Positions 2,538-18,873 of a DNA stretch of 64,000 nucleotides are shown here, one piece after another; within the stretch, counting starts at the first letter, position 1; the number at the start of each line of letters is the position of its first letter. The position numbers and the translations under genes are program-made. Under the pieces are notes generated by a model, which did not search any database, was not told where the DNA came from, and saw nothing but the letters and a program-made list of their open reading frames with translations. The stretch is taken from assembly GCF_017726655.1 (NCBI RefSeq), contig NZ_CP072309.1, positions 248,001-312,000 of the forward strand. The letters are read 5' to 3'. Source of the DNA: Agrobacterium tumefaciens (GTDB taxonomy: Bacteria > Pseudomonadota > Alphaproteobacteria > Rhizobiales > Rhizobiaceae).

Positions 2538-5500
2538 TCCCAAGTTTCTGCATCAACCGCCCTGTCGCCACCACGCTTCTTGCCATCGGCCTCGTGCTGG
2601 CCGGGCTTGCGGGCTTCCGCCTGCTGCCCGTCGCCGCCCTGCCGAAGGTGGATTTTCCAACGATCAACGTCTCTTCATCGCTGTCTGGCGCTTCGCCACA
2701 AACCATGGCGACATCGGTGACGACGCCGTTGGTCAAACAATTCGAGACCATTCCAGGCGTTAGCGAAATCAGCGCCACGAACACGCTCGGCAACAGCTCG
2801 ATCGTGCTTCAGTTCGACCTCAATCGTGATATCGACGCCGCCGCGGCCGATGTTCAGGCCGCAATCTCACGCGCACAACGGCAATTGCCGAGCAACATGA
2901 CGACGACGCCGAGCTATCGCAAGACGAACCCGGCCGATGCGCCAGTGTTGCTGCTTGCCGTCAACAGCAAGGAAATGCCCACCAGCAAGGTGGATGAGAT
3001 CGCCGAAAACATCATCTCACCGCTTCTCTCCACCATCTCGGGCGTTGCCCAGGTCAGTATTTATGGCGCGCAGACCTATGCGGTCCGTATCGGTCTCGAT
3101 CCAGCGCAGCTTCAGGCAAGAGGCCTTGGTGTCGACACTGTCACAACGGCCATTGCCCAGGCCAACAATCAGGTGCCTGTCGGCGCGCTCCAGGATGATA
3201 ATCAACGGCTGACGATCGAGGCTGATACGCAGCGGACCAACGCAGACGCCTTCCGCTCGCTGGTCGTTTCAACCACCAATGGCGCAAGGATCCACCTCGG
3301 CGATATCGCCAATGTCACCGACAGCATCGACAACACCAATGCCGGCAGTTGGTTCGATGGCGACCAGGCGATCATTCTCGCCGTGCAGCGTCAGCCCGAC
3401 GCCAACACGGTAGAGGTTGTCGACGCCATCAAAGAGAAGTTGCCCGCGCTGCGGCAGCAATTACCGCCTTCTGTGAATATCAACGTGATGAACGACGCTT
3501 CGACAGCGATCAAGGATGCGATCTCCGACGTTCAGTTCACGCTGTTTCTGACCATCGGCCTTGTAGTTGCGGTCATATACCTCTTTACCGGCCACCTCAC
3601 CGCAACCATTATTCCCGGCCTTGCGGTGCCGCTGTCGCTCATCACGGCTTTCGGCATGATGTATGTGCTTGGCTACAGTATCGATAACATCTCCCTGCTC
3701 GGCCTGACTTTGTCCGTGGGGCTGGTGGTGGATGACGCGATCGTCATGCTGGAGAACATTCTGCGCCTGCATGAGGAGGGCCTGCCGATGCGCGAGGCTG
3801 CGCTGCAGGGTGCCGCGGAAGTCAGCGGCACTATCCTGTCGATGTCGGTCTCGCTGGTTGCCGTTTTCATCCCCATCCTGTTGATGGGCGGTGTGATTGG
3901 CAGGCTCTTCAACGAATTCGGCATGGTCGTCACGCTCGCGATCATGGCATCGGCGCTGGTTTCACTGACGGTGACGCCCATGCTCGCCTCGCGTCTCTCC
4001 GGCCACACTTCCAAACCGCCGGCGATCATTCGCTGGTTCGATGCCGGGTTCGAACGCACGCTGCGTGGCTATGGCCGCGCGGTCAGCTGGTGTCTTTCCC
4101 ACCGTGGTATCGTGCTCGCGTCTTTTCTCGCGTCCATCGCTGCATCTGCCTTCCTCTTTGAAACGCTGCCGTCGAGCTTTTTCCCGCAGGAAGATATTGG
4201 CCGCCTTTCCGTTTCGACACAGGCGCGAGAGGATATTTCCTATACGGCGATGCGTGATCTTCAGGCGCAGGTCGCCGACCAGATTCGGAAAAATCCGGCC
4301 GTTGTTCATGTCACTTCCATTGTCGGCGGCAATTCCCGCAACCCGCTGAACAACGGGTCGATGTTCGTGGAACTGAAACCCAAGGAAGAGCGTGCTCCGC
4401 TGAGCCAGGTGCTGGCGGAACTGGGGCAGACAACATCAAAGGTCGCAGGCATCCGCACCTACATCAATCCGCAGCAAAGCCTGCGTTTCGGCGGACGCAG
4501 CTCCGCAAGTCAATATCAGCTCGTGGTTCAGGGCCTGAACGCCGACACGACGACCGAGTGGTCGAACAAGCTGATGGAGGCGATGCGCCGCGACCACACA
4601 TTTACCTCCGTCACATCCGACGCCCAGAATGGCGCGATCGCAGCCACCATTTCGGTTGATTCAGAAAAAGCCGCGGCCTTCGGCATTACCAATGACCAGC
4701 TGCGCAAGACGCTGGAAATGTCTTTCGGCGGTTATACGGCAGCGCAAATCCAGTCGACTGGCGATAGTTACGACGTCATCGTCGAATTTGACAGCTCCAA
4801 ACCCTGGAGCGCTGATTTTCTCAGCGACATCAATATCCTCTCCGCCAAGTCAGGCGTCCTCGTTCCGCTGTCCAACTTTGCTTCGCTCACGCGCACGCAG
4901 GCGCCTGTCACCATCAACCAGACGGGCCAGCTTGTCTCCACTACCATCTCCTTCAACCTACCGGATGGGGTCGCGCTTTCCGATGCCACAAGCCGGATCG
5001 ACCAGATCAAAACGACCATCGGTCTGCCGCAGGATGTCTTCACCAGCTATGGCGGCACGGCGGCGATCTTCCAGCAGAGTCAAGGGAATACCGGCATCCT
5101 CATTTTGGCAGCTGTGTTGACGATCTACGTTGTGCTGGGCGTGCTCTATGAAAGCTTCATCCACCCGCTGACCATCCTCTCCGGCCTGCCGGCCGCTGCC
5201 TTTGGCGCACTGGTAGCGCTTAAGGTGATGGGCATGGATTTCTCGATCATTGCGCTGATCGGCCTCTTGATGCTGATCGGCATCGTCAAGAAAAATGCGA
5301 TCATGATGATCGACGTGGCAGTGGAGCTCATACGCGAAAAGGGCGAGGCGCCGGCGACCGCCATTCACGAAGCCTGCGTCCGGCGTTTCCGGCCGATCAT
5401 GATGACGACCTTCTGCGCCCTTCTCGGGGCCCTGCCCATCGCACTCGGCTCCGGCGCAAGTTCGGAACTGCGCCAACCACTTGGCATCGCGGTGGTCGGT

Positions 5501-5674
5501 GGTCTTATCGTCTCGCAATTGCTGACGCTCTTCATCACGCCCGTCATTTTTGTGGAAATGGACCGATTTGGCCGGTTCCTGTCAGGGTTGTTTTCCCGCA
5601 AGAAAAATGTCGAGCCCCATGCGCCACAGCAGGAACCGGGCGCGAAACCTGAGCCGGATTCCGTAGCGGCCTAG
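2534..5674 (+). CDS. RND multidrug efflux pump, HAE-1 family (MdtB/MdtC-like)
   Basis: The proton-driven inner-membrane pump of a tripartite efflux system. It has 1046 residues, the usual RND length, with TM1 near residues 10-28, a large periplasmic loop, TM2-6 from about residue 335, and the second half repeating the pattern. The TM4 motif GLVVDDAIVMLEN carries the paired Asp of the proton relay. The second half has the matching GIVKKNAIMMID segment with its Lys. The opening (INRPVATTLLAIGLVLAG, then PVAALPKVDFPTI) resembles MdtC more than AcrB. It is downstream of and overlaps the adaptor gene. The last 4 bp overlap the stop of the convergent IalB gene. Substrate range cannot be read from sequence. 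Confidence 0.93.
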   Translation: MIPSFCINRPVATTLLAIGLVLAGLAGFRLLPVAALPKVDFPTINVSSSLSGASPQTMATSVTTPLVKQFETIPGVSEISATNTLGNSSIVLQFDLNRDIDAAAADVQAAISRAQRQLPSNMTTTPSYRKTNPADAPVLLLAVNSKEMPTSKVDEIAENIISPLLSTISGVAQVSIYGAQTYAVRIGLDPAQLQARGLGVDTVTTAIAQANNQVPVGALQDDNQRLTIEADTQRTNADAFRSLVVSTTNGARIHLGDIANVTDSIDNTNAGSWFDGDQAIILAVQRQPDANTVEVVDAIKEKLPALRQQLPPSVNINVMNDASTAIKDAISDVQFTLFLTIGLVVAVIYLFTGHLTATIIPGLAVPLSLITAFGMMYVLGYSIDNISLLGLTLSVGLVVDDAIVMLENILRLHEEGLPMREAALQGAAEVSGTILSMSVSLVAVFIPILLMGGVIGRLFNEFGMVVTLAIMASALVSLTVTPMLASRLSGHTSKPPAIIRWFDAGFERTLRGYGRAVSWCLSHRGIVLASFLASIAASAFLFETLPSSFFPQEDIGRLSVSTQAREDISYTAMRDLQAQVADQIRKNPAVVHVTSIVGGNSRNPLNNGSMFVELKPKEERAPLSQVLAELGQTTSKVAGIRTYINPQQSLRFGGRSSASQYQLVVQGLNADTTTEWSNKLMEAMRRDHTFTSVTSDAQNGAIAATISVDSEKAAAFGITNDQLRKTLEMSFGGYTAAQIQSTGDSYDVIVEFDSSKPWSADFLSDINILSAKSGVLVPLSNFASLTRTQAPVTINQTGQLVSTTISFNLPDGVALSDATSRIDQIKTTIGLPQDVFTSYGGTAAIFQQSQGNTGILILAAVLTIYVVLGVLYESFIHPLTILSGLPAAAFGALVALKVMGMDFSIIALIGLLMLIGIVKKNAIMMIDVAVELIREKGEAPATAIHEACVRRFRPIMMTTFCALLGALPIALGSGASSELRQPLGIAVVGGLIVSQLLTLFITPVIFVEMDRFGRFLSGLFSRKKNVEPHAPQQEPGAKPEPDSVAA

Positions 5675-6252
5675 CGCATTTCCTCAAGGCGTTTCAACGC
5701 CTGGGGAAACCCTTTTCCCTGCAGCTGAAACGAGACAATGCGACCCTGCAGATCGGGCGCCTCGATTGTGAGTGTCTGTTCCGCCTTCAGCGCCGAGACC
5801 AGCTCGACAAAGGGCGAGAAGGAAACAACGCAGCCAACCGGTAAGCAAGTGCTGACCTGCACCTCCTGCAAGCGCATATTTCCCGATTTGACGGAAAAGA
5901 GCTTGGTGACGGCCAGACCAAAGGGCAGAACCATCGTGCCAGCAAGCTTCCCCGGTGCTTCTTCACCGGCGAGCCGGAACTCCACGGAAACGACGAGCTT
6001 GCGGGTCTTCTCCTCCAATTGCACCTGGGCCATCGCGCAGGTCCGCTTCGTCTCCTGCGTCGCGCCAGAGGCTTTCTCGGGGCCATCGTCATTTCCGGGT
6101 GCAGTACAGGCGAGCTGCCAGCTTCCGTGAGCCTCGTGCAAGGATGCTGCGCCTTGCGACGTCTCCTGTGCAGCTGCGATGTCGAGAGAAAATGCGACGA
6201 ACAGCAAAGTGAAAGCCATAGCACTTGCGCAACGCGTCTTTTTACACCGCAT
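5671..6252 (-). CDS. Invasion-associated locus B (IalB) family protein
   Basis: A secreted or periplasmic protein of the alphaproteobacterial IalB family (193 residues), named after the Bartonella erythrocyte-invasion protein. Its role in plant-associated bacteria is not settled. Residues 1-28 form a signal peptide (MAFTLLFVAFSLDIAAAQ). The domain follows with SWQLACTAPG, the TCAMAQ motif, and VSTCLPVGCVVSFSPF. The four Cys can form disulfides, and the GCVVSF segment is typical of the family. The ATG overlaps the autotransporter stop (TGATG, 1 bp), so translation is probably coupled and the gene belongs to that operon. The 3' end overlaps the convergent RND pump stop by 4 bp. Family assignment is good; function is open. 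Confidence 0.85.
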   Translation of the reverse strand: MRCKKTRCASAMAFTLLFVAFSLDIAAAQETSQGAASLHEAHGSWQLACTAPGNDDGPEKASGATQETKRTCAMAQVQLEEKTRKLVVSVEFRLAGEEAPGKLAGTMVLPFGLAVTKLFSVKSGNMRLQEVQVSTCLPVGCVVSFSPFVELVSALKAEQTLTIEAPDLQGRIVSFQLQGKGFPQALKRLEEMR

Positions 6253-9200
6253 CAGAAACGAACCCCAAGTTCGGCGGCAGCGGACTGATCCATCAGGCCA
6301 GCGCCGAAAACTGCACCATAACGGAATGTCAACGTGGCGGACGGCGTGAGATCGTAGCTTAGCCCCAGATTAAGTATTGCTGCGTCTCGCGAACCTGTAG
6401 TGCTCGCGATCGAAAACGCCTCCCCGCCGTCGTAGAAAAGGCTGCTGCCCATCGCAGTGTCGCCGTAATTGTGACGCCAGGCGAGATCGAACATTGCGCG
6501 GCCAAGCATGCCTCCCAGCGCGACATCCCTTGTGATGCGCGCACCGAGCGTCGTGGAAAGCTGTTCGTAGCGTGCAGACGCTGAGGACACGGCGGCGATC
6601 CCGCCTTTTTCGCCAAAAGCGTCGGTACGGCTGTTTACGTAGGCGATGTTGGCATAGGGCTCGACATGGGTCAGATCGAAATCGAAACGCCAGGCTGCTT
6701 CGGCAAAGACCTGCGACGTCGAGCCGTCATAGCTGGCGGAGAGGTTTTCGCTGAGTGTCGAGAAAGAGACAGAGCGGCGCGTATCCATATCCTGAAAGGC
6801 ATGGATCGCCCCAAACCGCAGAGACGCAGGCCCGATCATTGTGCCCGCATAAGCAGCCACATAATAACTGTCGACCTCTGCTGAAGCAGCAAATGTCGTC
6901 TGGTCAATCCTCTCGTGGCTGTAACCGCCCGCCACACCGGCGCGCCAACTTTTCCCGAGCTCACCATCAAGTCCGAAGAGAATGCCGCCGTCCTTGCTAT
7001 CAACCGATGACCCATTGCCATCGCCATCAACACGTCCACGCGACCCGAAACCACTGGTCCAGAAGCTCGGCGATCCTTCATCCTCGAACAAGAAGTCCCC
7101 GTCGTGCTTCCCATAAGCGACGGGCATGATTGGCCGTGCATCGATGCTGTCGAAGGCGCGGCGCAGCCGATCCAGAATAACGTCCCGGGTCTGGCTGCTG
7201 CGATTGACCAGGGTCATGGCAACCGACGGATGGATTTCTCCGGCAAGCTGCGAAAATGCCAGTTGCGTTTCACCGCCCTGAAGGAAAATGGCGGACTGAT
7301 ACAGGGCTGCATTTTCTCCGAGGGCCTGAACGGCGTTGGCCGCTGCTCGGGCATTTGCTGTGGTGGTTTGCGCGGCAAGAGATCCGGGGGCCGACGATGT
7401 CGGGCTGAACGACAGATAAGCGGTGCCAGTGTCGTCGCTCTTTGCGACGGTCGCGGTCAGATAGGCAAAATTCTCATCGATGCGGGCGAAAGCGCCGGTT
7501 ATGCCTCCCGTCGCAGTGAGGATCCGGTAGCGCGTGTTCAGACTGAAAGCAGATCGGTTCGTCAGCGGCGTGACGACGAGAGTTACGTCATTGGCGATTG
7601 TTACGGTGCCGTTCACCGCAAGCCTGTCGGAATTACCGGCGGTATCTATATCAACCGCATATTTGCCGCCCGCAGCGAATGTGGCGTCGCCTGTCGATGT
7701 CAACGTACCAAGCGGATTGCCCGGAGCCAGCGTACCGCCCGTACCGATAGCAAGGCCGGCAACAGTACCCGTACCGCCGAGCGTCGCGCCGTCGCCCACT
7801 GAAACCGCGCTCGCCAACGAGCCATTGACGCTCAGTTTTCCGCCTGAGACCGTCGTCGGCCCCAGATAAGTGCTGACGGCCGAGAGTTCGAGGTCGCCTG
7901 CGCCGGTCTTTTCGAAGCTGCCCGTGCCGTGAATCGCATTCGAAAGCCTCCCGGCGCCATCCACGACCAACGCCGCGTCATTGGCGATCTCGCCGGAGCC
8001 AAAGCTTCCCGCGGTTCCCTTCAAGGTACCGCCGGATATCGTAGTGCCGCCGGAATAGCTGTTGTTTCCAGAAAGCGTCGTCACGCCATTTTCCGCAACA
8101 ACGCTGCCCGCTCCCGAAATATCGGCCTTGACGAGGTAGGCAGTCTCAGAGTGATTGAAAACGATCCGGCCAGCGCCGGCTCCAAAGCTGATCGCCTGAG
8201 CATCGATGGTACCGGCCGAACGGGCCGTTTGTCCGGAAGCTGCGCCGACATTCAAGACGCCAGCCGAACCGGCAGAGGACGCAATGAGGATGGTAGGCGC
8301 CGCGAGCGCTGCGCCGCCTGTTACTTCAACGCTGCCGTCCCCGGCAGAGCCGATGACCAGGGTGTCGTCAACGGAGACGCGCGAGCCGATGCCGTTGACG
8401 AGGACGGCACCATCAGACCCCGCCGAATATCCCACGGAAAGCTGATGGGCATCGAGCGACGCACCGTTCGTCACAATCAAACTGCCGAAACCGGATTGTC
8501 CGACCGTCATGCGGCCGGAGGCCCCAAGGCCGTTATCGACGTAAGCCGTTATATTCGAGCCGGCACCGGTGATGGTCATCGTTCCCGATGAGCCGGAGAG
8601 ATCCCCCAGGACCACCTGCCCCGACCGGATATTTCCGCCGGCGCTGGCTGTAACCTCGGCCGAAGCCGTGTCCTGATAACCGGCGATCAAAGTGCCGGTC
8701 ATCGTCCAGCTGGAGCCACCGCCGGTAACGGTGACCGATGATGACGAACCGCTGAGCGCAGCGACGACACCGTTTCTACTCTCGACAGCGCCCCCGGCTT
8801 CAACCGACATCACAGCGTTGCCACTGCGACCGACGATAATGTCGCCCGCGCTGCGCAACGTGCTGCCAGCGCCGGAAATCCGGGCGGAGCCCTTACTGGC
8901 GGCACTATTGCCGAGTACGACGGCTTGACTGCTGACGATGCCGCCACCCGTGACGGTCAGGGACCCGGTGCCGGCATCGCCGATCGCAAGTCCGCCACTG
9001 CCGACCGTTAAGGCCGATCCCTCGCCATCGATGCTGGCTGCCCCGGTCGCCCCGGCAACAGAGCCGAGCCGGGCGGCGGTGCTCTTAACCGTGCCACCGG
9101 CGGTCACATTCAAGGTTCCGTTGCCGGAAGCCCCACCGGGATCGGCGACATCGCCACCGACCTGAAGATTGCCCGTGACCCATGTAGACCCGTCGCCGGC

Positions 9201-10226
9201 AACGCTCGCAACGGAAGTGGAATGGCGTCCGATGATGGCGCTGTCGCTGGTCGCTGACGCCGCTGCCTCAACAGTAAGGTGCGCACTGCCCTCGTTTCCG
9301 ACGACCAACTGACCGGTTTCCAGTGCCGAGCCAAGCCTGCTAAGGGTGACTTGGCTTCCCGACGCGGAGGAAAGATTGGCAATGACGGTCGTGGTTTCGC
9401 TGAGGAGTTTTCCGCCTCCCGTCACCGTCAGTGTGCTGACACCGGCATTGCCGATGACGGTGCCGGCCGCAACCGTCCAGCGGCTGCCGACGCCGGATAT
9501 AAGCGCGTCACCTTCCGTTCCTGTCGCCTCGCCCAGAACGGCCCTGTCGCTATTTACCGTGCTTCCGGCAAGAATTTTCAGGTCGCCCCTGCCGCCGCTG
9601 CCGGATGGCGCGGCGCTGGCACCGTATCCCACAAAGATCGTGCCTGCTGTAACAAGAGTGGACGAGTTGTCGAGTGTCAGGGAGCCGTTCCCTGTTGCCC
9701 CTTCGCCGATGTAGACGGTGCCGGTCGAGGTCGCGCTACCGTGTAAAAGGGAGAGGGTACCGACGCCGTTACCTCCGACCGATAAGAGACCGTGGTTTTG
9801 AAGGGTCGCGCCCGAGAACGTGACGGTGCCGCCAATTCCCGCGCCGACCCCAACGCTGAGCGAATTTGAAAACAGGCTCCCATTGATAACCAAAGTACCG
9901 GACGAAACTTGTCCGACCGTGACGGAATTGGCCATGGCAGATGTGCTGGTCGCGAGGACCGGGCCATCGCCGTTGATCAACACGTCATCGCCGGCATCGG
10001 GCACCCGGGCTGAGGGTGCCCAGTTCGTCGAGGTAGACCAATCGCCGCCCGGAACGCCGTTCCAGTTCAGGGTTTCCGCCCAAGCACTCTGACCAGGGCT
10101 AACGGAAAGCAGGATCGACAAAAACCAGCCTGTACCGAACGCTGAATGGCGGCCGGCAGCTTTTCTGCACGCAAGACTTTCCGGAGAGGTTTCCCTTTCC
10201 AAAAAGAGGCAGAAACAACCGGACAT
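6252..10226 (-). CDS. Autotransporter (type Va) with beta-helix passenger and C-terminal barrel
   Basis: A 1324-residue self-secreting surface protein. The N-terminus carries a long signal sequence (about 50 residues, cleaved near SAWA-ET). The passenger (about 55-1040) is a Gly/Ser/Thr-rich series of roughly 60-70-residue repeats built on G-S-L-T-V-T-G-G-G and A-R-I-S-G-A-G-S-T-like units, consistent with a right-handed beta helix. It ends with SGGTTISGGTLKG-type autotransporter repeats and a NSDRLAVNGTVTI segment. Residues about 1050-1324 form the 12-strand barrel, ending in the characteristic terminal Phe (ELGVRF). The start has an AGGGAAG ribosome site. It is transcribed with the IalB gene. 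Probably an adhesin, but no adhesin domain is recognisable. Confidence 0.92.
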   Translation of the reverse strand: MSGCFCLFLERETSPESLACRKAAGRHSAFGTGWFLSILLSVSPGQSAWAETLNWNGVPGGDWSTSTNWAPSARVPDAGDDVLINGDGPVLATSTSAMANSVTVGQVSSGTLVINGSLFSNSLSVGVGAGIGGTVTFSGATLQNHGLLSVGGNGVGTLSLLHGSATSTGTVYIGEGATGNGSLTLDNSSTLVTAGTIFVGYGASAAPSGSGGRGDLKILAGSTVNSDRAVLGEATGTEGDALISGVGSRWTVAAGTVIGNAGVSTLTVTGGGKLLSETTTVIANLSSASGSQVTLSRLGSALETGQLVVGNEGSAHLTVEAAASATSDSAIIGRHSTSVASVAGDGSTWVTGNLQVGGDVADPGGASGNGTLNVTAGGTVKSTAARLGSVAGATGAASIDGEGSALTVGSGGLAIGDAGTGSLTVTGGGIVSSQAVVLGNSAASKGSARISGAGSTLRSAGDIIVGRSGNAVMSVEAGGAVESRNGVVAALSGSSSSVTVTGGGSSWTMTGTLIAGYQDTASAEVTASAGGNIRSGQVVLGDLSGSSGTMTITGAGSNITAYVDNGLGASGRMTVGQSGFGSLIVTNGASLDAHQLSVGYSAGSDGAVLVNGIGSRVSVDDTLVIGSAGDGSVEVTGGAALAAPTILIASSAGSAGVLNVGAASGQTARSAGTIDAQAISFGAGAGRIVFNHSETAYLVKADISGAGSVVAENGVTTLSGNNSYSGGTTISGGTLKGTAGSFGSGEIANDAALVVDGAGRLSNAIHGTGSFEKTGAGDLELSAVSTYLGPTTVSGGKLSVNGSLASAVSVGDGATLGGTGTVAGLAIGTGGTLAPGNPLGTLTSTGDATFAAGGKYAVDIDTAGNSDRLAVNGTVTIANDVTLVVTPLTNRSAFSLNTRYRILTATGGITGAFARIDENFAYLTATVAKSDDTGTAYLSFSPTSSAPGSLAAQTTTANARAAANAVQALGENAALYQSAIFLQGGETQLAFSQLAGEIHPSVAMTLVNRSSQTRDVILDRLRRAFDSIDARPIMPVAYGKHDGDFLFEDEGSPSFWTSGFGSRGRVDGDGNGSSVDSKDGGILFGLDGELGKSWRAGVAGGYSHERIDQTTFAASAEVDSYYVAAYAGTMIGPASLRFGAIHAFQDMDTRRSVSFSTLSENLSASYDGSTSQVFAEAAWRFDFDLTHVEPYANIAYVNSRTDAFGEKGGIAAVSSASARYEQLSTTLGARITRDVALGGMLGRAMFDLAWRHNYGDTAMGSSLFYDGGEAFSIASTTGSRDAAILNLGLSYDLTPSATLTFRYGAVFGAGLMDQSAAAELGVRF

Positions 10227-10259
10227 TCAATCTTCCCTAATGAGCGCCGAACGACATCC

Positions 10260-10276
10260 ATGATTCGGCGAATCAT
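10260..10276. promoter_or_regulatory. Perfect palindrome ATGATTCG-g-CGAATCAT upstream of autotransporter
   Basis: A 17-bp perfect palindrome (8-1-8) lies 34 bp upstream of the autotransporter ATG. Its size, symmetry and position suit a dimeric repressor or activator site. The regulator is not evident; no dedicated regulator gene is adjacent. The rest of the 10227-10433 gap shows nothing else clear. Confidence 0.5.
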
Positions 10277-10433
10277 TTCTTCACCGAACCAGGTGCATTA
10301 AGCCATTTTGGAAAGTGAGCGCCAGCTATAACGTCACGACGACAGGGTTTTACTTTGAACACCTGGATCAGTGCCGGGAAATGCGGGCGACTGCAGCTGA
10401 TATCTTGCGTGAAACGCTGGCGACATCGCAGGT

Positions 10434-10958
10434 TTACTGACGGGCAAATCTCCCGAAGGCCCCACCCGAAAAGCACAGCGGATCGCCATCGCGATGGGCC
10501 GCGCGAAGCACTTCGCCGACGATGATCGTGTGGTCGCCCGCATCATGGGCAGCAGCCTTGCAGCATTCGAAACGCGCAAGCGTTCCGGGGATGACCGGCA
10601 CGCCTTCGTCGTTCAGTTCCCAGTCCAGATCGTCAAAGGCGCGTCCGTTGCGGGTAAAGCGTGCGCTCAACACATCCTGATCAGCGCTCAGCACATGGAT
10701 CGCGAAATGCGTCGCGCCATTGAAGGCTGAATAACGCGACGAACTTTTGGCCGGCGACCATAGCACCAGAGGCGGATCAAGCGACACGGACGCAAAGCTG
10801 TTGACCGTCATGCCAATTGGACCCTCAGGTGTGGTTGCGGTCACGACAGTCACACCCGTCGTGAAAGCGCCGAGCGCATTGCGAAAGCTGCGGCTGTTTT
10901 CGCCGCCAGGGACGAATACATGCTCATCCTGCCTCTTGATTGCTTCCGCCACTGTCAT
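10434..10958 (-). CDS. smoA: Flavin reductase of sulfoquinovose monooxygenase (SmoA-like)
   Basis: An NAD(P)H-dependent FMN reductase that supplies reduced FMN to the adjacent flavin monooxygenase. It is 174 residues from the ATG at 10958; a GTG one codon upstream is possible. It matches the flavin-reductase-like FMN-binding fold: NALGAFTTGVTVVTA near residues 27-41, MTVNSFASVSLDPPLVLWS near 49-67, and FAIHVLSADQ. The ATG overlaps the smoB stop by one base (TGATG), which indicates translational coupling. Third gene of smoC-smoB-smoA. The combination with an SsuD-type monooxygenase, an aldo-keto reductase, a GntR regulator and a sulfoquinovosidase is the sulfo-SMO set known from Agrobacterium. 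That context, not the reductase itself, gives the specific name. Confidence 0.85.
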   Translation of the reverse strand: MTVAEAIKRQDEHVFVPGGENSRSFRNALGAFTTGVTVVTATTPEGPIGMTVNSFASVSLDPPLVLWSPAKSSSRYSAFNGATHFAIHVLSADQDVLSARFTRNGRAFDDLDWELNDEGVPVIPGTLARFECCKAAAHDAGDHTIIVGEVLRAAHRDGDPLCFSGGAFGRFARQ

Positions 10959-11851
10959 CACGGCACCTCTTTTCCAATCGCAAGGGTGTAGAGTTCAAAC
11001 CACGTCTGGCGATCCATTGTCACGCGAAGCGCATCGGCCGCCGCTCTGATCCGTTCGAGATTATTCGTGCCGAGAACCGGCACGATCTTTGCCGGATGGC
11101 GCATCAGCCAGGCAATTGCGACCGCGGTCGCGTCGACACCCTGCTCCTCGCCGATACGCTGCAAGGCAGCCATGGTGCCGCCATGCGCGCCGGAGAAGAG
11201 CGATCCGCCGCCGAGCGGCGACCAGGCCATGGGCGATATGCGTCTTTCCTGAAGGTAGGCGAGATCGCCATTTATGAGGGAATCGGTGGCAAGCAGGCTC
11301 ATTTCGATCTGGTTCGTCACCAACGGGTTGCTCATGGCCGATTGCAGCAGCGAAAAATCCCACGGGCGGAAATTGGAGACGCCAACCGCCTTGACCTTGC
11401 CCGACGCCACCAAAGCATCAAGTGCCTTGCCGGTTTCTTCCGCGTCGATCAGCGGGTCGGGGCGGTGAATGAGCAGCAGATCGACATGGTCAGTCCCCAT
11501 GTCACGCAGCGACGCCTCGACCGACGCATTAATATGGCCCGCGGTGGTGTCGTAATGCTTGACGCGGGCGGTGGCGTGGCGGCCGGCCGGCGCGACGATG
11601 CCGCATTTGGTGACGATTTCGATTTTGTCGCGCAAACCTGGCGCGGCTTTCAATCCGGCGCCAAGAATGGCTTCTGCCGTGTATCCGCCATAGATATCGG
11701 CCTGATCAATTGTTGTGATGCCCTGCGCGAGGCAGGCCTCGATCTTCGCCTGGACATGCGTCGGGGAGGTGTCTGCGTCGTCACCAATGCGCCACATCCC
11801 GTAAACGATGCGGCTGAGTTCAAGCGTGTCAGAAAGACCGATACGTTCCAT
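10958..11851 (-). CDS. smoB: Aldo-keto reductase, 6-oxo-glucose reductase (SmoB-like)
   Basis: In the sulfo-SMO pathway this enzyme reduces 6-dehydroglucose, left after C-S cleavage of sulfoquinovose, to glucose with a nicotinamide cofactor. The 297-residue protein is a single TIM-barrel aldo-keto reductase. The catalytic tetrad is visible as Asp49, Tyr54 (in IDQADIYGG), Lys82 (in VTKCG) and His129 (in LLLIHRPDP). The C-terminal cofactor segment VPVLGTNNLERI is typical of the YdhF-like branch. Its ATG overlaps the smoC stop by one base and its own stop overlaps smoA in the same way, so the three genes form a tightly coupled operon. The biochemical role is transferred from the described Agrobacterium pathway. 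Confidence 0.87.
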   Translation of the reverse strand: MERIGLSDTLELSRIVYGMWRIGDDADTSPTHVQAKIEACLAQGITTIDQADIYGGYTAEAILGAGLKAAPGLRDKIEIVTKCGIVAPAGRHATARVKHYDTTAGHINASVEASLRDMGTDHVDLLLIHRPDPLIDAEETGKALDALVASGKVKAVGVSNFRPWDFSLLQSAMSNPLVTNQIEMSLLATDSLINGDLAYLQERRISPMAWSPLGGGSLFSGAHGGTMAALQRIGEEQGVDATAVAIAWLMRHPAKIVPVLGTNNLERIRAAADALRVTMDRQTWFELYTLAIGKEVP

Positions 11852-13008
11852 CAGTGGCGTTCCCCGTTGCCGAGCGGCGTCGCTGGCGTTTCAGAAGGCA
11901 CCCGGCCGTAGGCGTGTGGCAGGGAGCAGGTTTTCATCTGCGGCAACACCTTGGTGCCGAAGTGTTCCGCCTCGTCGAGATGCGGATAACCGGACAGAAT
12001 GAAGGCGCGGATACCCATCTTCTGGTAGTCCTCCAGCGCCGAAAGAACCTGATCCGTCGAGCCGACCAGCGCTGCACCGCAGCCGGAGCGCGCCCGGCCG
12101 ATGCCGGTCCACAGATTGGGTTCGACATAACCGAACTTGTCAGCGAGTTCGCGGGCCCGCGCCTGATGCGAAACGCCGAGTGAACCGCTGTCATGGGCGC
12201 GGCTGCGGATCAACTGGCCGTACTCATCGTCGAGCCTAGAGACCAGGTGCTCTGCGTATTCGCGGGCTTCCTGTTCGGTATCCCGCACGATCATGTGCAC
12301 ACGCAGACCATAATCCAGCGTACGACCATGGGCGGCAGCGCGCTCATTGACGGCGCGCATGCGGTCCGCCAGTTGGTCCTTTGTTTCAGGCCACATCAGA
12401 TAGACGTCGCACTGCGCGCCACAAAGTTCAAGCGCGTCCGGAGAGTAACCACCGAAATAAAGAAGCGGGCCGCCGTTCTGCTGGTAGGGTTTCGCCGGTT
12501 CGGTCGATACACCCTTGAACTGGTAAATCTCGCCATCGTGGTCGATGGTGTCGCGGGTCCAGGCCTGCCGCAAAATTTCGACGACCTCGTGGCTGCGCTT
12601 GTAACGGAAGGCGCTGTCGGCGACCTCTCCCGGAAAATCCGAGCTGATGACATTCAGCGTCAGGCGGCCCTTCAGCATGTGGTCGAGCGTTGCAACGGTG
12701 CGCGCGAGCATGATCGGCTGCATTTCACCGCAGCGGATCGCGGCAAGGAAATTGATGCGGTCGCTGATCGGCGCACAACCGGCGACGAAGCTCAGCGTAT
12801 CCTGCCCGACCTGATAGGACGAAGGGCAGAGAATGTTGCGGAAGCCCAGCTCCTCGGCTTTCTTGACGATATCGGAGCAATGCTCGAAGCTGGAGCGCAG
12901 ACTTCCGTCCGGTACGCCGAGATAGGCGTAATCATCGGAACATAATGCGGAAAACCAGGAGACCTCGGCAGCATCAAGATCAGCAGATGTAACGGGCACG
13001 ACAGTCAC
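11851..13008 (-). CDS. smoC: FMNH2-dependent sulfoquinovose monooxygenase (SmoC-like, SsuD/luciferase family)
   Basis: A two-component flavin monooxygenase that oxidatively cleaves the C-S bond of sulfoquinovose, releasing sulfite and 6-oxo-glucose, using FMNH2 from SmoA. The 385-residue protein has the bacterial-luciferase/alkanesulfonate monooxygenase barrel: LGVPDGSLRSSFEH near the start, then AAIRCGEMQPIMLARTVATLDHMLKGRLTLNVISSD and RRSHEVVEIL-type segments, and GTPEQVL-like GSTDQVLSALEDY near residue 318. The start is a GTG at 13008, supported by a strong GAGGAGG site 6 bp upstream. First gene of the operon, divergent from smoD. An SsuD acting on alkanesulfonates is the alternative, but the neighbouring sulfoquinovosidase and aldo-keto reductase favour SmoC. 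Confidence 0.87.
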   Translation of the reverse strand: MTVVPVTSADLDAAEVSWFSALCSDDYAYLGVPDGSLRSSFEHCSDIVKKAEELGFRNILCPSSYQVGQDTLSFVAGCAPISDRINFLAAIRCGEMQPIMLARTVATLDHMLKGRLTLNVISSDFPGEVADSAFRYKRSHEVVEILRQAWTRDTIDHDGEIYQFKGVSTEPAKPYQQNGGPLLYFGGYSPDALELCGAQCDVYLMWPETKDQLADRMRAVNERAAAHGRTLDYGLRVHMIVRDTEQEAREYAEHLVSRLDDEYGQLIRSRAHDSGSLGVSHQARARELADKFGYVEPNLWTGIGRARSGCGAALVGSTDQVLSALEDYQKMGIRAFILSGYPHLDEAEHFGTKVLPQMKTCSLPHAYGRVPSETPATPLGNGERH

Positions 13009-13064
13009 GCAATTCCTCCTCAGGGCTGCTCTCGTTTTTCTTGCATAGCATCAAGAAATATGTA

Positions 13065-13082
13065 AATCAATGATGTATCAAT
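13065..13082 (-). promoter_or_regulatory. Candidate SmoD operator, copy 1 (smoC-smoD divergent promoter)
   Basis: Read on the minus strand this is ATTGATACATCATTGATT. It lies in the 102-bp gap between the divergent smoC and smoD starts, about 57 bp upstream of smoC and 28 bp upstream of the smoD ATG. It matches an element upstream of smoI (13933-13950) at 16 of 18 positions; only the two central bases differ. The direct half-repeat ATTGAT recurs 11 bp apart in each copy. Shared only by the regions flanking this regulon as far as I can see, it is a good candidate for the GntR-type SmoD. Confidence 0.65.
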
Positions 13083-13110
13083 TTTTGTTTTGGGGCTAGG
13101 GAAACAGCAT

Positions 13111-13815
13111 ATGAAACGCGCTGGCGGCAGTCTGCCAATGTATATCCAGATCGCCGAAATGCTGGTGCGCGAGGTGGCAGCCGGCCGGTTGATGGACGGC
13201 GAGAAGCTCGCACCGGAGCGCGATATGGCGCTCAATCTAGGCATCGCAGTTGGCACTTTGCGCAAAGCCCTTGCCGAATTGCAGGAACGGGGCCTCCTGG
13301 AGCGCATACAGGGGTCCGGCAATTACATTCGCGCCATCAGTGATCCGCAGAGCGTCTACGCTTTCTTCCGGCTGGAACTTGTCGAAGGCGGCGGTCTACC
13401 GACGGCGGAGGTCCTTAGTGCTGCGAGGCTACCCAAACCTTCCGCCCTGCCCTCCTTCGGAACCTCCAACGAGGGGCACCGTATTCGCCGCCTGCGGCGC
13501 ATCGCCGGCAAACCGGCAGCGCTCGAGGAAATCTGGCTCGACGGCTCCTACGTCGACACTATCGCCACCGAAAACCTGTCGGAATCCCTCTACCTCTATT
13601 ACCGCACACGCCTCAATCTCTGGATATCGAAGGCGGAGGATCGCATCGATCTCGGCAGCGTGCCGGATTGGGCGCCGGGCATTTTCGGCCAGAAAGCCGG
13701 CGCGTCTGTGCCTCGCGTTCTGCGCCTTAGCCACGCGCAGGATGGGGCCGTCGCTGAGGTCTCATGGACCTGGTTCGACCACACCATTGCACAATACGTT
13801 TCGCGCATACGCTGA
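13111..13815 (+). CDS. smoD: GntR-family (HutC subfamily) regulator of the sulfoquinovose cluster (SmoD-like)
   Basis: A transcriptional regulator of 234 residues, expected to control the smo genes in response to sulfoquinovose or a derivative. Residues about 5-72 are the GntR winged helix (PMYIQIAEMLVREVAAGRL, then LAPERDMALNLGIAVGTLRKAL and GLLERIQGSGNYI). The rest is a UTRA-type effector domain (HRIRRLRRIAGKPAALEEIWLDGSYV and ending VSWTWFDHTIAQYVSRI). I start at the ATG at 13111 with an AGGGA site about 10 bp upstream rather than an in-frame TTG at 13090, which would add seven residues and reduce the space for the divergent promoter. An 18-bp element in its own promoter region recurs before smoI. 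Effector and operator are inferred. Confidence 0.85.
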   Translation: MKRAGGSLPMYIQIAEMLVREVAAGRLMDGEKLAPERDMALNLGIAVGTLRKALAELQERGLLERIQGSGNYIRAISDPQSVYAFFRLELVEGGGLPTAEVLSAARLPKPSALPSFGTSNEGHRIRRLRRIAGKPAALEEIWLDGSYVDTIATENLSESLYLYYRTRLNLWISKAEDRIDLGSVPDWAPGIFGQKAGASVPRVLRLSHAQDGAVAEVSWTWFDHTIAQYVSRIR

Positions 13816-14109
13816 AGACCTTGAAATCGCGCGCGCTTTGCACTGGCCAAGGAGAGCGATATGCACAACAGGATCAAGCATAAAATTAATATCATCAGAG
13901 CCCTGATCGTTTCAGCTTTGCCAAAAATGGAAATTGATACACTATTGATTTCCCCTCCATGATGGTTAATATCTCAGAGGCAGGCGGGGCGTGAACCCAA
14001 GGCATCGGCTTTCAACGGCGGCAAATTCGGAAGAGCCGATGCGCCAGAATTGAAGCTTGATATCGGCCACCGCATCCATTCGACGGCCTTGATGGCCAAA
14101 GGCAAAGTC
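13816..14109. other. smoD-smoI gap where the sulfoquinovose ABC importer genes are absent
   Basis: This 294-bp stretch separates smoD from smoI. In the Agrobacterium sulfo-SMO cluster as I recall it, the ABC importer (smoEFGH) sits between these genes; here nothing of that size exists. The first part (13816-13955) is AT-richer and carries the 18-bp element. From about 13963 the frame of smoI stays open upstream of its start with coding-like codons (GREPKASAFNGGKFGRAD is visible), which might be a remnant of a deleted gene or an unused extension. No complete gene is present. Confidence 0.5.
13933..13950 (+). promoter_or_regulatory. Candidate SmoD operator, copy 2 (upstream of smoI)
   Basis: ATTGATACACTATTGATT lies 160 bp upstream of the chosen smoI ATG. 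It is the same element as in the smoC-smoD gap, with 16 of 18 bases identical and CT in place of TC at the centre. Its presence suggests that smoI has its own SmoD-controlled promoter and is not simply read through from smoD. Confidence 0.65.
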
Positions 14110-16104
14110 ATGCATTTTGAAAAGACGAGAGCCGGCTTTACGCTCTCAATCGGCAACCGCGCCATCCTGTCCCATTCGCCCGATAAGCCCGCCTTCTTTG
14201 CCGGTCTGGGCAAGGAGCGGATGGAGATGTACCGCGGCAATTTCGATATCGAAGACTACGTCATCGAAAGGACTGCCCTGCGGTATGCCGAAGTCAGTGA
14301 CGGCGCAGTGACGCTCTCATCTGAGAAGGGTCAGGTGCCGCGCCTGCGCCTGACACTGGACGGTCATGCAATTCGTCTGACCGCGCTGGACGACACTATC
14401 AACCGCCTCTGGCTGCGTGTCGTTGCTGAAACGGATGAACACGTCTGGGGCGGAGGCGAACAGATGTCCTATTTCGACATGCGCGGCCGCCGTTTCCCGC
14501 TCTGGACCTCAGAACCGGGCGTCGGCCGGGACAAGACGACCGAAATCACCTTCAAATCCGACCTCAGCGGCAAGGCCGGCGGCGATTATTACAACACCAA
14601 CTATCCACAACCCACCTACCTCTCGTCGCGCAAATATGCCCTGCACGTAGAAACGAGCGCTTATTCCGTTTTCGATTTCCGCAATGGCGATTTCCACGAG
14701 ATCGAGATCTGGGCCATCCCCGAAAAAATCGAGCTTTTCGCCGGTGACCGGTTTACAGACATTGTTTCAGCCCTGTCGCTGCGGTTCGGGCGGCAGCCCG
14801 AATTGCCTGATTGGGTCTATAATGGCGCGATCATCGGTTTAAAGGATGGCGTCAACTCCTTCGCCCGACTGGAAAAAATCCGCGCTGCCGGAACGAAGGT
14901 TTCAGGCCTCTGGTGCGAGGACTGGGTGGGACTTCGCCAGACATCCTTCGGCGCGCGGTTGTTCTGGGACTGGCAGGCAAACGAAACCCGTTACCCGCAT
15001 CTGCGCCAGAAAATCGCCGAGCTTGCGGATCAGGGCGTCCGGTTCCTCGGCTATGTGAACCCCTATCTTTGCGTCGACGGCCCGCTCTTCCCGATCGCTG
15101 AAGCGGCCGGTTATTTCGCCACCGACGCCGAGGGCAAAACGGCGCTGGTGGATTTTGGCGAGTTCGATTGCGGCGTGGTCGACTTCACCAACCCGGCTGC
15201 CGCTGACTGGTTCGCCGAGGCGATCATCGGCAAGAATATGCTGGATTTTGGCCTCTCGGGCTGGATGGCCGATTTCGGCGAATATCTGCCGATCGATATC
15301 AAGCTTGCGAACGGCGTCGACGCCAAGCTGATGCACAATGCCTGGCCCACGCTCTGGGCCGAGGTCAATGCGAAAGCCGTGGAAAGCCGCGGCAAGACCG
15401 GCGAAGCCCTGTTCTTCATGCGCGCAGGCTTCACCGGCGTGCAGGCCCATTGCCCGCTCATCTGGGGCGGCGACCAGTCGGTCGATTTCTCCCGTCACGA
15501 CGGCCTTGTCACCGTCATTTGCGGCGCGCTCTCATCCGGGCTCATGGGCAACGCCTACCACCACTCCGATATTGGCGGCTATACCAGCCTTTTCGGCAAT
15601 GTGCGGACGGCGGAACTCATCATGCGCTGGACGGAGATGGCCGCCTTCACCCCGGTCATGCGCACCCACGAGGGCAACAGACCGCGCGACAACCTGCAGA
15701 TCGATCAGGATGAAGCGGTTCTTTCCCATTTCGCCCGCATGAGCGCGATCTATGTCGCGCTCGCTCCCTATCTGAAATCGCTTTCCGCCGAAGCGGCAAA
15801 GACGGGCCTGCCGGTGCAGCGGCCGCTTTTCCTGCATTACGAGAACGAGTTGCAGACCTATGCCATTCAGGACTGCTATCTCTATGGCGAGGACATGCTG
15901 GTCGCACCGGTCTGGAAGGCGGGCGAAACGCAACGCTCGCTCTACCTTCCGGGTGACGGCGAATGGGTGCATCTCTGGAGCGGCGCGCATTATCTGGGCG
16001 GACGGGAGATATCCGTCGAAGCGACACTTGGCGAGCCCGCGGTATTCTATCGCGCAGATAGCAATCACCGTCAGCTATTTGAACGGCTTCGCACCATCGA
16101 CTAA
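14110..16104 (+). CDS. smoI: Sulfoquinovosidase, GH31 (SmoI-like)
   Basis: A retaining alpha-glycosidase that releases sulfoquinovose from sulfoquinovosyl glycerol or diacylglycerol, derived from plant sulfolipid. I start at the ATG at 14110 (664 residues, the length I recall for the Agrobacterium enzyme); a TTG at 14050 would add 20 residues. With this numbering every sulfonate-site residue of the Agrobacterium KERWY set is present: Lys245, Glu270 (in WCEDW), Arg283 and Trp286 (in ARLFWDW) and Tyr491. The nucleophile is Asp388 (in WMADFGEYLP) and the acid/base is Asp455 (in WGGDQS), 67 residues apart as in YihQ. This makes it a sulfoquinovosidase rather than an ordinary alpha-glucosidase. 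Likely SmoD-regulated through the element at 13933. A hairpin follows 15 bp after the stop. Confidence 0.95.
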   Translation: MHFEKTRAGFTLSIGNRAILSHSPDKPAFFAGLGKERMEMYRGNFDIEDYVIERTALRYAEVSDGAVTLSSEKGQVPRLRLTLDGHAIRLTALDDTINRLWLRVVAETDEHVWGGGEQMSYFDMRGRRFPLWTSEPGVGRDKTTEITFKSDLSGKAGGDYYNTNYPQPTYLSSRKYALHVETSAYSVFDFRNGDFHEIEIWAIPEKIELFAGDRFTDIVSALSLRFGRQPELPDWVYNGAIIGLKDGVNSFARLEKIRAAGTKVSGLWCEDWVGLRQTSFGARLFWDWQANETRYPHLRQKIAELADQGVRFLGYVNPYLCVDGPLFPIAEAAGYFATDAEGKTALVDFGEFDCGVVDFTNPAAADWFAEAIIGKNMLDFGLSGWMADFGEYLPIDIKLANGVDAKLMHNAWPTLWAEVNAKAVESRGKTGEALFFMRAGFTGVQAHCPLIWGGDQSVDFSRHDGLVTVICGALSSGLMGNAYHHSDIGGYTSLFGNVRTAELIMRWTEMAAFTPVMRTHEGNRPRDNLQIDQDEAVLSHFARMSAIYVALAPYLKSLSAEAAKTGLPVQRPLFLHYENELQTYAIQDCYLYGEDMLVAPVWKAGETQRSLYLPGDGEWVHLWSGAHYLGGREISVEATLGEPAVFYRADSNHRQLFERLRTID

Positions 16105-16119: not shown

Positions 16120-16144
16120 CGTCACCCCGTCAGGCGGGGTGACG
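16120..16144. terminator. Perfect 10-bp hairpin between convergent smoI and TadG-like gene
   Basis: CGTCACCCCG (16120-16129), a 5-nt loop and CGGGGTGACG (16135-16144) form a perfect stem. It follows the smoI stop by 15 bp and also overlaps the last codons of the convergent TadG-like gene, so it could end smoI transcription. No long T tract is present. Confidence 0.5.
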
Positions 16145-17423
16145 TGATGGCCTTCTTGAAAAGCGCGGTCATCGCGTCGCTGATACCCTGCGACGGGCTG
16201 ACCTCGAAGAACAGGCCCGGCGAAGCGCATTGCTGCATGCGTGTGCCGATTTCCGACTGAAACGGCTTGATCCAGCTATTATACCAGTCATTGGTCGGCA
16301 GCGGCAAATAGGTGGTGTAGAGTACGGCGATGCGAAAGCCCTTTTCTTTCAGCTTCGTGCAATATTTGAGGTCGATCGGTTCCTGACAGCGACCGCCCGT
16401 CGTTTTTTTGGTGCAGGTCGAGGGCTTGTAACTATCGCCGACGCCATCGGTTACGAAGAAGACGATCTTCTCCGGACTCGCCGAACTCGCGCCTGTGCCG
16501 GAGTTACCGATCTTGTCCCCGATCTGGGTCAGCGCCCGGTCGAAATCCGTCTGCTGGTCGTTGTTGAATCCCTGCTTGGGGATAGACATCAGGTCAACTT
16601 CGGCGGCTTTCTTCTTCGCCGTCGCCAGATCCGATGTCAGTGGCACAACTTCAAGCAGCTTCGTATCTTCGGCTTTTTCCCCAAAGGAATAGACTGCCAT
16701 ACGATATTGATTGCTGCTTTTGCGCATGGACTTCGCCGTATCCATAAGGCTCGCTGTCGCCTTTGCGACCACATTGATGCGCGTGGTCACGCCGAGACGT
16801 TTTGCCTTGTAGTAATAGCTGTTGGTATCCACCACACCGTCCTTCACGATGTGACAGGCGAAAGCGCATTTATCGCTCGTATTTGCGACCATGGTGGCAA
16901 CATCGGTCGGGGTCGCGCCCACACCCATGGACGGCGTGTTGTCCAGAAGCACGTAAAAATCGCTGAAGGTTTCCGTTTCATATTTGGCGGTGGCAGAGCC
17001 AGAAACCGTGAAGAGATCTTTTCCCAGTATCTTGGAAAGCGTGGTATCGACAGAGGCCTTGAAGTTGACGGAAGAGACAATCGCATTACCGCTTTTTGTC
17101 ACCTCTATATCGAGAGACAAAAGCGAGTAATCGGGATTGGCTCGCTCATTGCTTCTGAAAAAGGCGGCGCCTTCGTCGCCGCCAAGCGTAATGACGCCAT
17201 CTGCGGACATCTCCTTTGCCTTGTGAACGCTTGCCGAGCTATCGGAGACCACCGCCAGAGCCGCCGCATCCGCCGCCCTCTGCAGGTCGGATTTTACGGT
17301 CATGCTGTGCGTTACATCCAGCGCAACGCCGGCGGTACCGATGAGCGGCACCAAAAGCAAAGCAGTTAGAATTCCGAAATTACCCGATCTGTCCTGCCAG
17401 ATATTTTTCAAGTTTGCCCCCAA
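16122..17423 (-). CDS. TadG-like pilus-assembly/vWA domain protein, paralog 1
   Basis: A 433-residue membrane-anchored protein. Residues about 8-55 are the TadE/TadG-type N-terminus (DRSGNFGILTALLLVPLIGTAGVALD), with one TM helix and a prepilin-like Asp/Glu region. A von Willebrand factor A domain follows from about residue 150 (YVLLDNTPSMGVGATPTD, later FFVTDGVGDSYKP). The MIDAS motif reads D-N-T-P-S, with Thr where DxSxS has Ser; its neighbour has the canonical form. It ends GISDAMTALFKKAITSPRLTG. It is 127 bp from, and clearly paralogous to, the next gene. No Tad/Flp pilus genes are in the window, so a pilus role is only inferred from the N-terminal domain. Confidence 0.85.
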   Translation of the reverse strand: MGANLKNIWQDRSGNFGILTALLLVPLIGTAGVALDVTHSMTVKSDLQRAADAAALAVVSDSSASVHKAKEMSADGVITLGGDEGAAFFRSNERANPDYSLLSLDIEVTKSGNAIVSSVNFKASVDTTLSKILGKDLFTVSGSATAKYETETFSDFYVLLDNTPSMGVGATPTDVATMVANTSDKCAFACHIVKDGVVDTNSYYYKAKRLGVTTRINVVAKATASLMDTAKSMRKSSNQYRMAVYSFGEKAEDTKLLEVVPLTSDLATAKKKAAEVDLMSIPKQGFNNDQQTDFDRALTQIGDKIGNSGTGASSASPEKIVFFVTDGVGDSYKPSTCTKKTTGGRCQEPIDLKYCTKLKEKGFRIAVLYTTYLPLPTNDWYNSWIKPFQSEIGTRMQQCASPGLFFEVSPSQGISDAMTALFKKAITSPRLTG

Positions 17424-17550
17424 AGCGTTTGGAGACAGAACTTAGAAAAAGACCGTTGAAAGGCAGTTTCGAAGGATAACTAATTTTCGCTAAATCTAAT
17501 TTCCTAAATAACTAAATGTCGATCCGATAAACCTTCCGCTATGCTGGTCA

Positions 17551-18873
17551 TCACCCGGTCAGGCGTGGCGAGCTGATCGCCTTCTTAAAAAGCGCCGACA
17601 TGGCCTCGCTGATACCCTGCGAGGGGCTGACTTCGAAAAACAGGCCAGGGGAGGCGCAGGCTTGCATGCGTGGGCCGATCTCCGTTTCGAATGGTGCGAT
17701 CCAATTATCGTAGTGCTGATTACCAGGAAGCGGGAGGTAAGTGGTGTAAAGCACGGCGATACGGAAGCCTTGTTTTTTGAGGTTGTCGCACAGCTTGGTG
17801 TCTATGGGTTCCTGGCAGCGTCCATTCCAAATCTTTTTCTTGGTACATGCGGCTTTTGCAGCATCGGCCACGCCATCCGACACGAAGAAAAGGATTTTTT
17901 CAGGTGTAGCGGAACTCGCGCCACTTCCCGATGTTCCCATCTTCGGTATTATCCTCGTCAGTGCACGGTCGAAATTCGTATGCTGGTCGCTTTTATAATT
18001 GTGGCCTGGAACTGACATCAACTCAATTCCTCTGATCTTTTTTTTGGCCGCCTGCAAATCCGAGGTACGCGAGACAATCTCCGGAAGGTCTTTGTTAAAA
18101 AAGGCATCCTCTGCTGTCTTTCCGAAAGTGTAGACAGCAATGCGATACTGATCAGGTTTTTTGCGCGTGTCCTGAGCCGTGTCCATCAAACTCGCGGTCG
18201 CCTTTGCAACCACGTCGATGCGCGTCGTCGCGTTGATGTATCCCTTCGCCTGCGGATCCTTGTTTTTGAGCCGGAAATAGCTGCTGTTGGGATCGGAAGA
18301 TCCGTCCGCCAACGTGACATGGCAGGCGAACTGACAACCGAGGGCGGCTTTCATCGTGGCCACATCGGCGGGCGTTGCGCCGACGCCCATGGAAGGCGAG
18401 TTGTCGAGCAGCAGATAGAAGTCGGTATAGGTTTCCGTCTCATATTTGGCAGTTGCGTTGCCGGAAACAGTCAGGAAATCCTTTCCCAGGACTCTGGAGA
18501 GAGTTGTATTGAGCGAAGCCTTAAAACTCACTGACGATTCGATCACGGTGTTATTCTTCTTCACCTGTATATCGAGCGCCAATAGGCGATATTCCGGGTT
18601 CCCCCGCTGATTGCTGTGAAAAAAAGCTTCAGCCTCTTCCTTTCCAACCGAAACGACGCCGTTGCTGGCCATTCGCCGTGCAGCCTCGGCACTGGCTGAA
18701 CTTTCCGCAACCACGGCCAGAGCCGCAGAATCCGCTGCCATCTGAAGATCGGATTTCACGCTCATGGCTCGAACGACATCCAGCGCAACGCCGGCGGATC
18801 CGATGATCGGTATGATCAACAAAGCACTCAGAATCGCAAAATTTCCAGACTTGTCCCGCCAGATGTTTTTCAA
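17551..18873 (-). CDS. TadG-like pilus-assembly/vWA domain protein, paralog 2
   Basis: A 440-residue paralog of the downstream gene, with the same architecture: an N-terminal TM/TadG segment (DKSGNFAILSALLIIPIIGSAGVALD), a middle region, and a vWA domain with a canonical MIDAS (YLLLDNSPSMGVGATPAD) and FFVSDGVADAAKA. The C-terminal 20 residues are nearly identical between the two (GISEAMSALFKKAISSPRLTG). This points to tandem duplication. Spacing of 127 bp with an AT-rich gap suggests that each has its own promoter, though read-through is possible. It contains several Cys pairs in the vWA domain. Expected to sit in the inner membrane with the vWA domain outside. Function not established by context. 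Confidence 0.85.
   Translation of the reverse strand: MKNIWRDKSGNFAILSALLIIPIIGSAGVALDVVRAMSVKSDLQMAADSAALAVVAESSASAEAARRMASNGVVSVGKEEAEAFFHSNQRGNPEYRLLALDIQVKKNNTVIESSVSFKASLNTTLSRVLGKDFLTVSGNATAKYETETYTDFYLLLDNSPSMGVGATPADVATMKAALGCQFACHVTLADGSSDPNSSYFRLKNKDPQAKGYINATTRIDVVAKATASLMDTAQDTRKKPDQYRIAVYTFGKTAEDAFFNKDLPEIVSRTSDLQAAKKKIRGIELMSVPGHNYKSDQHTNFDRALTRIIPKMGTSGSGASSATPEKILFFVSDGVADAAKAACTKKKIWNGRCQEPIDTKLCDNLKKQGFRIAVLYTTYLPLPGNQHYDNWIAPFETEIGPRMQACASPGLFFEVSPSQGISEAMSALFKKAISSPRLTG

Follow-up and report, generated by a model that had tools for sequence, protein, structure and literature searches.

A sulfo-SMO sulfoquinovose cluster of Agrobacterium tumefaciens with an apparently precise deletion of the smoEFGH importer module

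The window analysed here, a 64,000-nucleotide stretch of Agrobacterium tumefaciens DNA (C2:248001-312000 of a 5.08-Mb, two-contig, 100%-complete genome), carries a sulfo-SMO cluster for the plant sulfosugar sulfoquinovose (SQ) from which the ABC module for SQ-glycerol, smoEFGH, appears to have been precisely deleted. The reading favoured here, with moderate confidence, combines this deletion with a pathway that still works on substrate brought in by a generalist importer. SQ or its glycerol glycoside would be taken up, probably with reduced affinity, by a generalist sugar importer whose genes lie elsewhere. SmoI would then free SQ, SmoC together with SmoA would cleave the C-S bond to give sulfite and 6-oxo-glucose, and SmoB would make glucose, in the roles that these enzymes have in the published pathway. 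SmoD would still control smoCBA and smoI, leaving regulated expression probably intact.

Loss of the importer makes this a genuine, if modest, variation on an established pathway. A set of enzymes for a sulfur-cycling route described only recently is found here apart from its importer, which behaves as a modular unit open to loss and exchange. Strains of this kind would be scored as SQ degraders wherever SQ use is predicted from SmoB and SmoC alone, so that whether they can take up SQ is a real question. At the level of titles and the first part of abstracts, no report of importer loss in Agrobacterium sulfo-SMO clusters was found, the 2022 PNAS sulfo-SMO paper and the SmoF structure paper lying outside that coverage.

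Retained genes and the missing importer

Five sulfo-SMO genes stand at the locus:

10434..10961, minus strand: smoA, flavin reductase (PF01613, 129 bits)
10958..11851, minus strand: smoB, aldo/keto reductase (6-oxo-glucose reductase; PF00248, 185 bits)
11851..13008, minus strand: smoC, sulfoquinovose monooxygenase (PDB 7olf, 873 bits, and 7oh2, 786 bits, each over 385/385 aa)
13090..13815, plus strand: smoD, GntR/UTRA regulator (PF00392 and PF07702)
14110..16104, plus strand: smoI, GH31 sulfoquinovosidase (SQase) with KERWY residues (5ohs/5ohy)

The initial annotation had described smoA, smoB, smoC, smoD and a KERWY sulfoquinovosidase as all present; they are intact, and Pfam domains (Flavin_Reduct, Aldo_ket_red, Bac_luciferase, GntR with UTRA, and GH31 for smoA, smoB, smoC, smoD and smoI, respectively), PDB matches and the active-site residues agree with this. 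SmoA and SmoB are 83-95% and 85-95% identical, respectively, to their counterparts in the 22 closest congeners (L135-L156). SmoI matches 5ohs/5ohy at about 1450 bits over 663 residues; these entries, titled 'Alpha-glucosidase yihQ', are presumably the A. tumefaciens enzyme. All five KERWY residues are found (K245, E270, R283, W286, Y491), in a motif and numbering that we take to be those of SQases, partly after the initial annotation. The spacing of 294 bp claimed for smoD and smoI was reproduced from the smoD stop to the ATG at 14110; the start in the open reading frame list is an in-frame TTG upstream, at 14050, and homologs align from the ATG. SmoC and SmoB, whose joint presence is the criterion for the sulfo-SMO pathway in the available part of PMC13372026, thus occur here together, accompanied by the SmoA flavin reductase and the GH31 KERWY SQase.

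The genes flanking the cluster are the same in A. pusense L006. Adjoining smoA, at 6252-10226, an open reading frame reads as a 1324-aa autotransporter-like repeat protein, with a 1323-aa counterpart in the same place in L006. The interval from smoI to the ABC genes that follow holds a pair of similar genes (16122-18873), of which the first has a Tad (TadE/G-like) domain; different congeners have both, one or neither of this pair 3' of smoI.

The importer genes had been said to stand between smoD and smoI in Agrobacterium, and this is the usual arrangement: all of smoEFGH occupies the interval in 31 of 34 congener loci, as it does in A. pusense L006. Of the other three, L166 (genome G004) and L167 (G010) lack smoEFGH there, and L160 is interrupted by a contig end, with SmoF of the same genome on another contig. 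None of the four genes is linked to the window locus. The reported absence extends genome-wide for SmoF and SmoG: a search with the SmoF of L006 (6486-7736; 859 bits to PDB 7nbz, named SmoF) gave no ortholog, the best match being 36% identical, and SmoG likewise gave none, its best match (37%) belonging to the same system as the 36% SmoF paralog. SmoE and SmoH were assessed at the locus only, because MalK-type ATPases and such permeases are abundant. Across 39 genomes of the genus, smoC (E <= 1e-100) is present in 35 and SmoF (>=78% identity) in 32, that is, in 32 of the 34 smoC-bearing congeners other than the window genome. The three genomes that have smoC and lack SmoF are the window genome, G004 and G010; four congeners (G018, G022, G025, G032) have neither. 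An arrangement shared by most close relatives, which the initial annotation had named as a possible refutation, is not what the genus shows.

Comparison of window positions 13700-14300 with seven congeners by blastn locates the scar. The match runs through smoD into the smoE leader, reaching 14081-14083 at best, and resumes at 14098 with the smoH stop region, followed by smoI:

14081..14098, no strand: deletion junction, where the smoE leader meets the smoH stop region (blastn against seven congeners; L137 sequence)

In L137 the missing stretch corresponds to 5264-9622, about 4.36 kb, beginning about 33 bp ahead of smoE and ending with the smoH stop. The deletion places smoI directly behind the old importer (smoE) promoter site. 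The absence of smoEFGH is, on comparative evidence, a derived deletion cut at gene boundaries, because the window groups with importer-bearing A. pusense and retains a second 21-bp site before the smoE slot. An assembly deletion at 13.9 kb, which had been named as a possible refutation, fits poorly with these data; the junction itself is at about 14081-14098. The nearest SmoD protein cluster, P0001 at 99%, comprises 6 sequences. Comparison with one genome per species leaves some room for an assembly or strain artefact; the two-contig, 100%-complete genome, the break at gene boundaries and a leader that has diverged on the retained side make this very improbable.

A repeat-mediated deletion was considered, given that the 7-base sequence CGCCGGT is found on either side of the missing stretch in L137. 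This mechanism is not claimed, since about 0.4 chance matches are expected by our own estimate and the predicted product mismatches the window. At the same intergenic spot, L135 (G015) carries an insertion of about 7.4 kb (4961-12522) between smoD and an intact smoE operator, containing a 950-aa open reading frame that reads as autotransporter-like and a CSS-motif/EAL protein.

In a tree of smoA-D and smoI, the window is joined to the importer-bearing A. pusense locus L136 with 100% support, and L166 and L167 are joined to the importer-bearing L168, also with 100% support. Two deeper nodes on the path of the window are supported at 67 and 83, and the outgroup (L032, L065, L074) is itself without SmoEFGH. 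By parsimony, there were apparently two independent importer losses in the genus, one in the window lineage and one in that of G004 and G010, and both spare all five other smo genes. No importer common to G004 and G010 was seen in the 16 kb on the smoA side of each (first residues read by eye); the smoI side was listed from L166 only.

Probable operators and constraint on the retained genes

Two conserved sites in the window are probable SmoD operators, judging from their position and distribution:

13064..13084, minus strand: probable SmoD operator of smoCBA, AAATTGATACATCATTGATTT, the conserved site before smoC
13931..13951, plus strand: probable SmoD operator of the lost smoE promoter, AAATTGATACACTATTGATTT, a conserved site now ahead of smoI

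In 65 of the 70 loci L016-L085 (all but L072, L073, L078, L082 and L083), the 21-bp site AAATTGATACAYYATTGATTT is found ahead of smoC with up to two mismatches; the importer-bearing congener loci, 31 in number, also have it ahead of smoE. With up to three mismatches, the window genome contains exactly two such sites, at window positions 13064(-) and 13931(+), and no third. Both are found in 32/32 SmoF-bearing congeners, three of which (G003, G005, G006) also have one site with two mismatches elsewhere. A single site is present in each of the importer-less G004 and G010 and in 14/14 further SmoF-less genomes (nine with adjacent smoD and smoI, five with TRAP clusters); the four congeners without smoC have none, and a reversed control pattern had no match in the same genus genomes. 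The window thus has the two SmoD-type sites, before smoC and before the smoE slot, of the Agrobacterium type. Since importer-bearing congeners have two sites and importer-less ones have one, the second site of the window marks the lost importer promoter. The leader retained 3' of smoD has a mean identity of only 0.607 to relatives, compared with 0.827 among the relatives themselves (lowest pair 0.555), and the operator within it is unchanged at 21/21 positions, for which a rough chance figure is 0.607^21 = 2.8e-5. The conserved site offers a handle on SmoD regulation; no report of a SmoD operator was found in titles and the first part of abstracts, a coverage outside which the main 2022 PNAS paper falls.

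Constraint on the remaining genes was estimated as mean pairwise NG86 dN/dS in a set of 23 genomes, that of the window plus 22 close congeners; pairs with dS <=0.15 or undefined were dropped, and 20-22 pairs involve the window. Values for the window, with the range of the others and rank, are 0.071 (0.061-0.086; 4/23) for smoI, 0.042 (0.024-0.058; 17/23) for smoA, 0.050 (0.034-0.067; 20/23) for smoB and 0.020 (0.009-0.026; 19/23) for smoC; the control, an ABC permease from the neighbourhood, ranks 6/19. These four smo genes lie within the range of relatives, with smoA, smoB and smoC toward the upper side of normal, in averages that also take in evolution before the deletion; as the deletion is undatable, part of the purifying signal predates it. 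The value for smoD is 0.094 (0.041-0.060), the highest of 23 and about twice that of relatives, which could reflect relaxed constraint. At otherwise invariant sites, smoD has 10 private changes compared with at most two in any of the 22 others, a count inflated by the long terminal branch of the window (0.116); nine of the ten lie outside the Pfam GntR stretch. The corresponding counts for the window and the highest other sequence are 3 and 2 for smoA, 7 and 6 for smoB, 5 and 2 for smoC, and 5 and 5 for smoI.

The behaviour of smoD bears on decay, the main rival to a working pathway. In this scenario, loss of the importer came first and SQ can already no longer be used effectively, the enzymes surviving only because too little time has gone by. 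Both the raised dN/dS of smoD and its private changes, in the inflated count just given, would fit, as would the four of 39 congeners lacking smoC and SmoF, which indicate that absence of the whole pathway occurs. However, dN/dS of smoI, smoA, smoB and smoC inside the range of relatives, an operator intact amid a strongly diverged leader, and two apparently independent losses that both spared the five other genes speak against decay, which is considered unlikely although it merits serious weight. A broader extension of the working-pathway reading is entertained tentatively, at somewhat less than an even chance: agrobacteria would have dropped the sulfosugar importer at least twice, selection would have kept the pathway and its regulation, a generalist importer, or one of a kind not recognised here, would bring in SQ or its glycoside, and the fast evolution of SmoD would represent re-tuning to another inducer level.

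Importers beyond the genus and candidates in the window genome

Parts of the published work (PMC9594981, PMC10755693, PMC13372026, PMC12421959) describe sulfo-SMO/ASMO enzymes, GH188 SQases in such clusters and sulfosugar ABC importers. Species loci with smoC were compared for the best 80 of 531 confirmed (from at least 597 matched stretches), categories being defined by similarity cut-offs within about 10 kb on each side; 12 of the 80 are flagged as cut (L014, L018, L030, L045, L056, L061, L072, L075, L076, L080, L082, L084). Among these best 80, SmoEFGH accompanies GH31 in 23 and a GH188-like SQase in one. Linked TRAP genes occur in 22 (21 with GH188-like, one without an SQase seen) and a different ABC importer in 19 (18 with GH188-like, one without an SQase seen). 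No importer was seen in nine loci with GH31, five with GH188-like and one with neither (L018, cut). The GH188-like label rests on matches to 8qc2/8qc3 (about 390 bits) and 8zn9 (540 bits), entries that carry only oxidoreductase names and that we take to be GH188-related. A further sugar-type ABC binding protein stands in seven of the nine GH31 loci of the no-importer class (L032 and six others, 57-97% like that of L032), so that "none seen" refers only to the three importer types named here. Sulfo-SMO clusters with another importer, or with none seen, are common outside the genus.

Within the best 80 of 531, 56 genomes are without linked SmoEFGH, and none of the 45 searched contains SmoF at E <= 1e-70; the same query finds 32 in the genus, as a positive control. 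That other species keep these enzymes without SmoF counts in favour of a working pathway in the window genome. Outside the genus, SmoEFGH thus seems often to be replaced by other importers. Since a linked TRAP or other ABC system is present in many relatives that lack SmoF, the success of such relatives does not prove that an importer is dispensable. In 21 TRAP loci of the best 80 (L022, L026, L039, L043 and 17 others), the TRAP genes typically stand just after smoA and the Gfo/Idh/MocA (GH188-like) gene just after smoD. Their recurrence with smoC makes a TRAP-type SQ importer likely.

These exchanges lend some plausibility to a dedicated unlinked SQ importer of an unrecognised family having taken over in the window genome. 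The best local candidate is the ABC system of the 36% SmoF paralog (SBP_bac_1; C2:324875, about 61 kb away), whose neighbours read as permeases, a MalK-type ATPase, a ThuA-like protein and a MocA-like protein. It keeps Arg345, Ser43 and Gly166, numbers that are presumably those of the SmoF structure work, and has Glu at the Thr220 position; the pocket letters were checked in alignment, and placement at residues 12-13 shifted between two alignments. As a repurposed SQ importer, this paralog was rejected: all ten compared pocket letters are identical in the window genome and 12 fetched orthologs, and the system is found in 33/39 congeners, including SmoF-bearing and smoC-less ones. The SmoF-like binding protein that the initial annotation had suggested seeking elsewhere in the genome thus comes down to a paralog of another system. 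No close TRAP relative is present (best DctP match, 25%), and the sole match to a YihO-type (MFS_2) carrier scores 24.5 bits, under the cut-off of 27 bits that MFS_2 proteins exceed in 12/14 control genomes. With the lack of a third SmoD-type site, these results leave a dedicated replacement importer unsupported by the sequence searches, and such a takeover is regarded as improbable. Of the two alternatives raised at the outset, loss of the importer is upheld by the scar, the surviving operator and the 31/34 intact congener loci, while the searches described here detected no dedicated unlinked transporter.

Relation to other cluster types

The window shares orthologs of SmoA-D and SmoI, their order and strands, and the probable operator pair with the Agrobacterium-type smoABCDEFGHI, and differs from it in the deletion of smoEFGH and in smoI lying directly behind the smoE promoter site. 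Clusters of the Neorhizobium/Xaviernesmea type (9/80 of the best 80 of 531) resemble the window in that a GH31 smoI adjoins smoD without linked SmoEFGH, and no SmoF was found in 9/9 of their genomes. Unlike the window, they have a smoD-smoI gap of 21-25 bp and a single operator, and hence no scar of a lost promoter. The TRAP clusters with a GH188-like SQase (21/80 of the best 80 of 531) share the smoC/smoD core and a SmoD-type site, but have another linked importer and another SQase family.

In six loci (L034, L037, L038, L041, L058, L066), smoC and smoD stand next to a different ABC system, and neither a close smoA nor a close smoB lies within 10 kb. A KduI-family protein and an 842-aa protein without Pfam domains are found in 6/6 and a GH88 protein in 5/6, and SmoC in these loci possibly serves another sulfosugar. 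The KduI-family, 842-aa and GH88 genes also stand in smoA-bearing loci.
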